In this document: positions 4,097 to 5,915 of the stretch, in pieces
How positions within the stretch are numbered: the stretch's first letter is position 1
Layout: each line of letters opens with the position of its first letter
From: Novosphingobium profundi
GTDB taxonomy: Bacteria > Pseudomonadota > Alphaproteobacteria > Sphingomonadales > Sphingomonadaceae
Length of the DNA stretch: 64,000 nucleotides
NCBI RefSeq assembly: GCF_020524485.1
Contig: NZ_JAIVLF010000001.1
Coordinates: 1,116,001 to 1,180,000, forward strand
Direction: 5' to 3'
Position numbers and translations under genes: made by a program
Notes under the pieces: generated by a model
What the model saw: the letters and a program-made list of their open reading frames with translations, nothing else
The model's database searches: none
Told to the model about the DNA's origin: nothing

Positions 4097-4489
4097 ATGG
4101 CAACCAAGCTCCCCCCCCAGGTCGTCGAACCACTGACCACCCCGCAGCATTTTGCGGAACCGTCTTCGCGCGAGCTTCGCTCGCAGGCGATGCACCGGTT
4201 GCAGGTGGGGCTCTTTGGCCTGTGCGCGATGCTGCTCATCGTCGGGTTGGCGAGCATCATCATGGAACGCGCGCGCCTTGCGGATGAGGAAGACCCCATC
4301 CGCGAGGTCGTCGCGGCCGATGCGCCCGAGAAGAAGCCGGCAAGCGATCCGCTCGCCGATATCGGCGTCATGCCCGCGGCCGAACCTTCGCCCAAGGCCA
4401 AGGAGGCCGAAGGCACTTCGGCGCGCGATGTGGAAGGGCCGCTCGATCCGCGTGCGGCGCCTTTCGATGGACCGCTGCGCGAGGAATAG
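4097..4489 (+). CDS. Hypothetical single-pass membrane protein
   Basis: A 130-residue protein with one hydrophobic segment (about residues 36-56, VGLFGLCAMLLIVGLASII). A short charged N-terminus precedes it and an acidic, Pro/Ala/Glu-rich tail follows. The pattern fits an inner-membrane protein whose tail is probably periplasmic. No family is recognised. It follows cysK by 17 nt and precedes the long leader of the division cluster. Confidence 0.65.
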   Translation: MATKLPPQVVEPLTTPQHFAEPSSRELRSQAMHRLQVGLFGLCAMLLIVGLASIIMERARLADEEDPIREVVAADAPEKKPASDPLADIGVMPAAEPSPKAKEAEGTSARDVEGPLDPRAAPFDGPLREE

Positions 4490-4600
4490 ACCTCGTTCCT
4501 GGCTCTGGAGGGGGCGTGCGTGACCCTTCGTGCGGCGCAGGCATCCTGAGAATCACCTAAAGATATACGTTGGCCTTTCGGTCTGCGTCGGTTCCTTCTC

Positions 4601-5081
4601 GGGGGCGGACGGGGATTGGCAGGGCAGGGCGTGGTCGTTCGTCCCGGACTATCCCTCAGGGTGATTGCCCAGGCATGGGCTGCGTGTGGATGTGTTCCGG
4701 TTCGGGGAGGATTGGGGACAGGCCGGAAATCTACGCAGATGTCCCTGGCTTCCGGTCACCTCATTCGCGCGCAGTATTGCGCATTTGCGGCTTGGTACGG
4801 GTCCTTATGGGGATCTGCGGGGATGGGCCTGGATCGTTTTGGGGAGGACCGGGGATCGGTTGCCGCCCTATGTGTTCGCTGTGGGGGCGCACCGGTCCTG
4901 TTTCCAGTGGCAAAGTGCCTGCTGAAGCACGGAAAACCGGGACTTGATGCCATGATCGCACCAATCGGCCTCTGCATTGGGCAAAACGGGGAGATCGCGG
5001 GATCGTGCGTTCACGATGGCTGCAATCCGTGTCTTTACGCAGGGTCTTCCGATAGGGATGGGGATGCCTAGGGATGGCGGG
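4601..5081. promoter_or_regulatory. Phased G-tract array, candidate extended MraZ operator region
   Basis: The stretch 4490-5411 holds no convincing gene. G-runs recur one helical turn apart: 4601/4611; 4704/4714; 4809/4819, a GG at 4831, then 4841/4851; a clean triplet 4979/4989/4999; and 5060/5071. C-runs at 4643/4653 have the same spacing in the other orientation. MraZ proteins bind repeats of TGGGN separated by 5 nt, a 10-nt period (established for E. coli). Regulation by MraZ is inferred from this spacing and from the mraZ gene downstream. A 151-codon reading frame at 4616-5071 shows no coding character. Confidence 0.45.
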
Positions 5082-5226
5082 AAGTGGCGCTGTCTTCGCA
5101 CTCGCAAACCTGGTGAAACTACATAAAATTACACAAATTCAACGGTATTATTGGATAACGTGAGCTTAATAAGGCCTGTGGAAACTATGTGGGTAAAGTT
5201 CCCGGGGTGCGCAATCTCGTGAAAAT

Positions 5227-5260
5227 TCCCGTCATTCCCCAAATTTCCCTTTTATCCCCC
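5227..5260 (-). promoter_or_regulatory. Proximal MraZ operator-like repeat
   Basis: Four C-runs (5228-5230, 5237-5240, 5247-5249, 5256-5260) lie about 10 bp apart and read as TGGGG-type repeats on the minus strand. They follow an AT-rich stretch (5115-5200), the likeliest place for the cluster promoter. The arrangement matches the operator usually found just upstream of mraZ. Orientation is inverted relative to the E. coli case. Confidence 0.55.
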
Positions 5261-5411
5261 AAGGGGGCAAGGTAGAAGGAATCGCAATCGGAATGCCTGA
5301 GTCCCGCCGCACCGTGTTCGGTTGGTGCGGACCCTGTCGCGCACCTGCGCTTCGGGGGTGGCCTCGGTCATGCTCCGAGGCGGCAAAACCCACGGGGATC
5401 AACAGGGCGGC

Positions 5412-5915
5412 ATGGCTGGGCAACCAACCATCTACAGCGGACAGGGCTTCTCGCTTATACGCGACAAGAAGCGCTTCGTGCTGCCCAACACCCTTCGCCC
5501 CACCGTCCGGGAATCGAGCGGCAAGGACATCATGTGCCTGGCCAAGCATCCCGAGTGGAAGTGCCTCGTCGCCTTCGGCTTGTCGCGCGTGGATGACTTC
5601 GAGAAGCAGCTCGACGCGGAGGAAGAGCGCGCGGACCGTGCCGGGCGTCCCTTCAACCGCGACAAGCGCGCGATGCAGCTCTACTCGTTCCAGCAGGTTC
5701 CCTTCGACGGCTCGGGCCGTTTTGTCCTGCCCGAGGCGCTGTCGGGTCTTGCCAACATCGAGGACCAGCTCTTCTTCCAGGGTGTGGGCCGCTTCATCAC
5801 CATCTGGAACCCGGCCGAACTCTATGCGCTCGCCGAGGATCCCGAGATGGAAACCATCGTCGCCACCTGCCGTTCGCTGGCCGACGCCGAACTTGCCAAG
5901 GCGAAGAAGAAGTGA
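5412..5915 (+). CDS. mraZ: Transcriptional regulator MraZ
   Basis: A 167-residue protein with two MraZ/AbrB-like half domains: the first around [19 protein letters not shown] (residues 6-24), the second around [17 protein letters not shown]. MraZ binds its own promoter and controls the division/cell-wall cluster. The ATG at 5412 fits family N-termini; in-frame upstream starts (5322, 5370) would add unlike residues. It is the first gene of the dcw cluster, and its stop overlaps the GTG of rsmH (GTGA). The operator-like repeats at 5227-5260 and farther upstream suggest autoregulation. Confidence 0.92.

Follow-up and report, generated by a model that had tools for sequence, protein, structure and literature searches.

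MraZ, a regulator conserved very widely among bacteria, assembles into ring oligomers, and its gene heads the division and cell-wall (dcw) cluster. To our knowledge, the purpose of the ring lacks a clear explanation. DNA loops closed on operator pairs are known from the lac and gal repressors. The accessible part of a study of Burkholderia cenocepacia describes an MraZ operator of four 7-nt repeats with 3-nt spacers that was bound in a gel shift, and places a single box set downstream of the -10 element in both Escherichia coli and B. cenocepacia (PMC7761207). E. coli MraZ represses, as cited in the accessible sections of PMC8475190 and PMC7761207. In Mycoplasma genitalium, the repeats are AAAGTG[T/G], and the mraZ promoter is given as their sole occurrence in that chromosome in the available part of PMC8475190. 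The titles of structure entries 9r4j and 9sz7 refer to a four-box promoter bound by M. genitalium MraZ. The dcw cluster of Rhodobacter sphaeroides has an extended 268-nt transcribed leader with the sRNA UpsM, according to the available part of PMC5089854.

The locus analyzed here resembles the E. coli and B. cenocepacia boxes in its direct repeats of a G-rich core with a 10-bp period upstream of mraZ. Unlike the single set of those species, its proximal array (P) overlaps the predicted -35 element and lies on the opposite strand; upstream, at a phased distance, there is a second set that faces it. It shares the protein fold with M. genitalium and differs from it in the repeat sequence. Like R. 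sphaeroides, as far as the accessible text describes it, the bacterium is an alphaproteobacterium with an unusual region before its dcw cluster; here, however, the predicted transcription start is downstream of the arrays, and a search for Rfam families near mraZ gave no match. Among the papers listed, a search of the open-access literature found no report of an MraZ loop or of distal or phased MraZ sites. Our reading, drawn from sequence, is that the G-tract arrays are two facing sets of MraZ operators, both predicted to be bound by MraZ oligomers that would loop the DNA at the dcw promoter (probability roughly 0.6).

G-tract arrays upstream of mraZ

The window is a 64,000-nt stretch of Novosphingobium profundi DNA. 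Upstream of mraZ, it carries a cysteine synthase gene, a small open reading frame (4097 to 4489), and then 922 nt without an evident gene. Arrays were called by a strict rule that accepts two units, each a G-run followed by A, at a step of 9 to 11; the number of a unit is the position of the base that follows its run. Five distal arrays passed this rule. The features are as follows (gap, inner gap to P in bp; phase, position relative to P out of 10.5).

4601-4629, plus strand: outermost G-tract group, weak (4601, 4611, 4622, 4627)
4704-4718, plus strand: distal array GGGGAGGATTGGGGA; strict pair 4708/4718; gap 510, phase 4.0
4799-4827, plus strand: distal array GGG-N7-GGGGATCTGCGGGGATGGG; strict pair 4813/4823; gap 405, phase 4.0
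4841-4855, plus strand: distal array GGGGAGGACCGGGGA; strict pair 4845/4855; gap 373, phase 3.5
4979-5001, plus strand: distal array with GGG at 4979, GGGG at 4988, and GGG at 4999; strict pair 4992/5002; gap 226, phase 3.5
5055-5081, plus strand: D1, the distal array closest to P; strict pair 5064/5074; gap 154, phase 5.0
5228-5260, minus strand (GGG on minus): proximal MraZ-box-like array P, four units, from periodicity and matrix
5228-5230, 5237-5240, 5247-5249, and 5256-5260: unit runs of P, CCC on the plus strand
5250-5255, plus strand: TTTTAT, predicted -35-like hexamer with a proximal unit on either side, register taken by hand from 58 loci
5272-5277, plus strand: predicted -10-like hexamer GTAGAA, transferred by hand from 58 loci
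5286-5411, plus strand: predicted mraZ 5' leader, start inferred near 5286 from the 58-locus register and the leader alignment
5412-5915, plus strand: mraZ, 167 amino acids
5912-6895, plus strand: rsmH (mraW), the gene after mraZ in the cluster (TIGR00006, 267 bits)

The MraZ protein of the window shares 98% identity with the one from Novosphingobium sp. BW1 (L031), the nearest relative. It scored 23.4 bits with PF02381 (cut-off, 23) and 45.9 bits with the NCBIfam MraZ models, below their cut-off of 162; the family match and the position just before rsmH identify it as MraZ. In fold, it matches the MraZ-promoter complexes 9r4j and 9sz7, and sequence comparison of protein P0001 against solved structures gave no match. 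A PF02381 family search of the window's own genome was empty because this MraZ sits at the cut-off; a protein search did find it.

The original prediction described at least six groups of G or C tracts with 10-bp phasing, including a clean triplet at 4979/4989/4999 and a run from 4809 to 4851. Both were recovered, with GGG starts at 4979, 4988/4989, and 4999 and at 4809, 4819, 4841, and 4851. The number of groups came to the five distal arrays listed above, whereas the outermost group fails the strict rule, with just one of its runs followed by A. Comparison with shuffled sequence, which had been named as a check, revealed an excess of GGG periodicity and left the reading unrefuted: 13 lag-10 GGG pairs were counted in 4601-5260 versus 2.34 ± 1.65 in 1,000 dinucleotide shuffles, whose counts all stayed below 13, and five lag-10 GGGA pairs versus 0.06. 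With the proximal cluster excluded (4601-5220), the GGG count was still 13 versus 2.62 ± 1.83. For CCC, the single pair in 4601-5220 gave no significant periodicity (P = 0.074). Read on the plus strand, the distal tracts are GGG and the proximal ones CCC; the two had been pooled and should be kept apart.

Across the 4.64-Mb genome, the pattern GGGRA-N5-GGGRA has 32 matches and its reversed control 36, so there is no genome-wide excess. Six of the 32 matches fall in the 560 bp before mraZ (binomial P about 3e-18), three on the plus strand (4704, 4809, and 4841) and three on the minus strand (within 5226-5259).

Between the window and L031, 47 of 48 unit bases are identical versus 348 of 463 other bases of 4600-5110 (P = 8e-5), and because of this difference the distal units look constrained. 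The corresponding values for two further relatives (L033 and L032) were 25/48 and 22/48 for unit bases and 174/463 and 170/463 for the rest, from alignments that are unreliable because the arrays have moved.

An opposite-orientation pair (CCC-N7-CCC on the plus strand) was observed at 4643-4655 among the distal arrays, with a proximal matrix score of 14.9 (4653). This minus-strand pair breaks an otherwise clean strand rule and is partly lost in L031.

The same unit on opposite strands in relatives

The named relatives comprised the best 80 of 510 places, from Novosphingobium, Croceicoccus, Altererythrobacter, Qipengyuania, Citromicrobium, Erythrobacter, and other genera. Among these best 80 of 510, the minus-strand lag-10 pair motif had 81 matches in 57 loci at -250 to -100 and 2 matches beyond -250 up to -1000. 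Plus-strand pairs in the same 80 loci numbered 49 (30 loci) at -700 to -450, 28 (24 loci) at -450 to -250, and 11 further upstream, with none at -250 to 0. Reversed-pattern controls gave 0 or 1 match per bin at lag 10; one reversed pattern had 19 far-upstream matches at lag 12. P was present with at least three units in 77 of these best 80 loci, and the proximal unit consensus is GGGAWWWNNG with a period of about 10 (323 units).

A matrix was trained on the proximal minus-strand units of the 80 relatives alone, and both strands were scanned. At a score of at least 10, the best 80 of 510 yielded 93 plus-strand matches in 60 loci at -450 to -250, 57 plus-strand matches in 32 loci at -700 to -450 (the D2 region), and 4 minus-strand matches at -700 to -250. 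Markov shuffles of -1000 to -250 gave 6.3 matches on the plus strand and 2.3 on the minus strand. In E. coli, the scan of the 601-nt cra-mraZ gap plus 20 nt found as sole pairs of at least 10 the two overlapping pairs of TGGGAAATTGTGGGGCAAAGTGGGA, a TGGG trio that we take, from the box letters together with the E. coli sequence, to be its MraZ boxes. Four of the five distal pairs of the window score under 10. The pair at 4813 (10.9) is the sole distal plus-strand pair there above the threshold, and the window's distal units are therefore weaker than the consensus.

Further mraZ loci of the family (120 among the 150 matches listed, weaker ones thinned) were pooled with L001 to L030 and the 80 named loci to give 230 loci in 169 sequence clusters, of which 110 contained no training locus and served as the held-out set. 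At a threshold of 10 and among the matches listed, P was found in 105 of the 110 held-out clusters and D1 in 74; a third (36/110) lacked D1. Conservation in related genomes, the second check attached to the original prediction, was thus observed and likewise left the reading unrefuted. Held-out matches at -450 to -250 numbered 115 on the plus strand versus 5 on the minus strand, and a D2-region array occurred in 6 of the 110 clusters, again among the matches listed. Further distal arrays occur mainly in part of Novosphingobium.

Higher-scoring Erythrobacter/Novosphingobium-like loci among the matches listed carried P in 83 of 84 and D1 in 75 of 84 cases. In weaker-scoring loci, which we label as probably Sphingomonas type, the counts among the matches listed were 34 of 36 and 8 of 36. 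Across 20 loci of other families in the order, with extrapolated gene starts, 14 had a minus-strand array within 350 nt, mostly of the TGGG type, and 5 had a plus-strand array at -450 to -200. On these counts, P seems older than D1, and D1 seems to be mainly a trait of part of the family.

Three 2.1-Mb genomes of one genus in this family (L256/G080, L257/G221, and L258/G164) contain rsmH, and a search of them for MraZ found none at E ≤ 10. The 1.2 kb before rsmH held 0, 1, and 0 array pairs, respectively, the one pair sitting at the rsmH start in L257; the three genomes represent one evolutionary event. These genomes bear on the proposal that a protein other than MraZ, for example a nucleoid protein or an unrelated protein that regulates the neighboring gene, binds the distal arrays. 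MraZ binding is itself a prediction, and the distal units of the window differ from the proximal units after the A (GGGGAGG). Set against this, the proximal-unit matrix recognizes the distal units of relatives, the pair motif exceeds chance at one locus of its own genome, and arrays are missing before rsmH, save for the one pair, in the genus without a detectable MraZ. We regard binding by another protein as improbable. The idea in the original prediction of candidate MraZ sites outside the promoter cluster gains from the proximal-like unit, its retention in relatives, and its concentration at this locus.

Helical phasing of the facing arrays

The D1-P distance was taken from the best D1 pair to the best P pair at a threshold of 12. 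For the discovery representatives (n = 35 of 59), the phase near 10.5 bp was 4.8 with R = 0.42 (nominal P = 0.002). In the validation set (n = 59 of 110), it was 4.5 with R = 0.61 at 10.5 bp (nominal P = 2e-10), and the peak lay at periods of 10.5 to 10.75 bp. All phase P values are nominal because the loci are related by descent. Re-pairing of arrays among 94 loci reached the observed R in 0 of 10,000 trials (maximum, 0.32 versus 0.54). Relative to the mraZ start, neither array was phased (R = 0.10 and 0.02).

Strict array edges (212 arrays in 127 cluster representatives) gave phases of 4.4, 4.7, 5.2, and 4.7 in the bins of 50 to 100, 100 to 140, 140 to 170, and 170 to 200 bp (n = 13, 62, 52, and 13; R = 0.62 to 0.76). 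In the bins beyond 200 bp, the phase was not significant (n = 10, 22, 32, 3, and 5). The inner gaps between D1 and P are mostly about 78 to 155 bp, and gaps below 260 bp (118 loci) cluster near 89, 100, 110, 121, 132, 142, and 153. Up to 200 bp, D1 and P are thus two sets at a helically phased distance, as in operator-pair loops. Phasing beyond 260 bp is not general across the set, and no clear pattern was seen between the nearest and the further distal arrays. G-runs outside the arrays were also weakly phased (R = 0.29, n = 147; R = 0.19, n = 354) and are perhaps decayed units.

An array within 260 bp was present in 166 of the 230 loci. Spacers were clustered by BLAST at E = 0.01 with one representative per cluster; the 92 clusters of unlike spacers gave R = 0.57, and random sets without any two similar spacers gave at least 0.56. 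For 99 pairs of similar spacers, gap differences in bp were 0 to 2 (71 pairs), 3 (1), 8 to 12 (16), 18 to 23 (10), and 42 (1), and net length differences between homologous anchors were 0 to 3 (84), 7 (1), 9 to 12 (10), 20 to 21 (2), 31 (1), and 113 (1). Alignment revealed that many 10- and 22-bp gap steps are edge units gained or lost, not indels. This test of whole-turn indels is only supportive, since most pairs are close relatives and divergent alignments are poor.

The five distal arrays of the window are coherent in phase (R = 0.95, P = 0.002; one genome), and against the phase found elsewhere they gave P = 0.0013. The coherence depends on the period, with R falling to 0.79 at 10.4 and 0.65 at 10.6.

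In its sequence, the family demonstrates a shared unit, opposite strands, conservation, and a helically phased spacing between P and the distal set. An origin by chance, in which a G-rich stretch with accidental periodicity was passed on by descent, would fit the composition of the region (268 G and 198 C in 811 nt) and the shared ancestry of the relatives. The shuffles, the reversed-pattern controls, the held-out and unlike-spacer phase tests, the unit conservation relative to L031, and the presence of arrays in other genera all argue against it, and we give it next to no weight. G-quadruplexes that control transcription have been proposed for Staphylococcus aureus mraZ, and the accessible part of PMC11796246 reports one in that promoter as well as G4 motifs conserved in mraZ promoters; some groups of the window also contain four G-runs. 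A motif of four G3 runs with loops of 1 to 7, however, overlaps just 14 of the 166 nearest distal arrays, and neither the A after the run nor the helical phasing has a role in such a model, which makes quadruplex control here highly improbable.

Predicted promoter, loop, and neighboring gene

Alignment of 58 cluster representatives on CA[AT]CGG placed CCC units at -60, -50, -39, -30, and -20, with a TTYCAT -35-like hexamer between two units followed by a TTA-type -10. The window reads CAATCGG and lies outside the 58 loci, and the promoter register was transferred to it by hand. A scan for the sigma-70 consensus and for promoters and terminators gave no match. The original prediction assigned the arrays to the mraZ leader; because the distal arrays are upstream of the predicted promoter, they are probably untranscribed and outside the leader.

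A facing operator pair at helical phase leads us to predict an MraZ-closed loop at the dcw promoter. MraZ would bind both the proximal and the distal set, and one oligomer, or two in contact, would bridge them. On P, it would cover the -35 element, so that repression is favored by analogy with E. coli; activation is also possible. Closure of the loop would tighten mraZ autoregulation, and the extra arrays of this lineage would probably act as auxiliary operators. The arrangement resembles the lac and gal loops in having two operator sets at a helically phased distance near one promoter; it differs in that the operators are multi-unit arrays and the loop is predicted from sequence.

Alternatively, MraZ may bind both sets with no bridge between them, and the phasing would then reflect assembly on one face of the helix or curved DNA that wraps around the oligomers. 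A/T-rich tracts that run on at about 10-bp steps upstream of P fit this account, as do the unit arrays, themselves continuous same-face repeats. The stretches of about 80 to 155 bp that separate the sets and contain no full unit count against it, and simple extension of an array leaves the strand flip unexplained. We consider this alternative unlikely and prefer the MraZ-closed loop.

The original prediction also suggested that MraZ could organize the whole leader. One distal array facing P at a phased distance is what survives of this as a general feature; the further arrays are not phase-locked as a rule, although the five of the window are. A wider picture, in which MraZ is a DNA-looping regulator, is tenable at somewhat less than even odds. 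In Novosphingobium and the Erythrobacter-like genera, facing MraZ arrays would then close a loop that evolution has maintained, perhaps with the help of IHF, and that has the dcw promoter at one foot; in this lineage, the five phase-coherent distal arrays, which span some 370 bp, would form a larger nucleoprotein structure with MraZ. If the loop reading is correct, the second facing array would give the MraZ oligomer a natural job, the bridging of two DNA sites; loop phasing would have been detected through comparative genomics; and operators would be written partly within the coding sequence of a neighboring gene.

IHF-like sites were scanned in the 130 to 160 bp upstream of P in 164 cluster representatives from relatives. 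Nine altered patterns occurred 0 to 5 times each, whereas the exact IHF consensus occurred 18 times in 17 of the 164 loci. When one mismatch was allowed, 95 matches in 70 loci were found versus 19 to 59 for altered patterns; 36 of the 95 sit 10 to 20 bp before P, where they would fit a bent loop.

The start of the predicted leader (5284-5411), CAATCGGAATGNCTGAGTC, is strongly conserved in 16 Novosphingobium loci (L031 to L058 leaders), and other genera carry CATCGGACA at this place. Leader RNA structure had weak support, with 12 weak pairs, 2 of them with changes on both sides.

In some relatives, a PF09822-matching gene precedes mraZ (41.8 bits in L041; below the cut-off in L109). The longest upstream open frame, picked by length alone so that some of the 33 loci concerned may not be genes, contains 43 of 169 distal pairs. 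Their codon frames number 16, 18, and 9; with all three frames used, codons are not what keeps these pairs. Among the loci listed, the PF09822-type gene seems absent and the arrays kept in the lineage of the window and in L005, L006, L008, and L011. In L003/L035, L007/L041, and L009, distal arrays in a coding frame read as Gly-Lys/Ser-rich stretches (e.g., KSGGGSG), as if the operator had shaped a protein segment.
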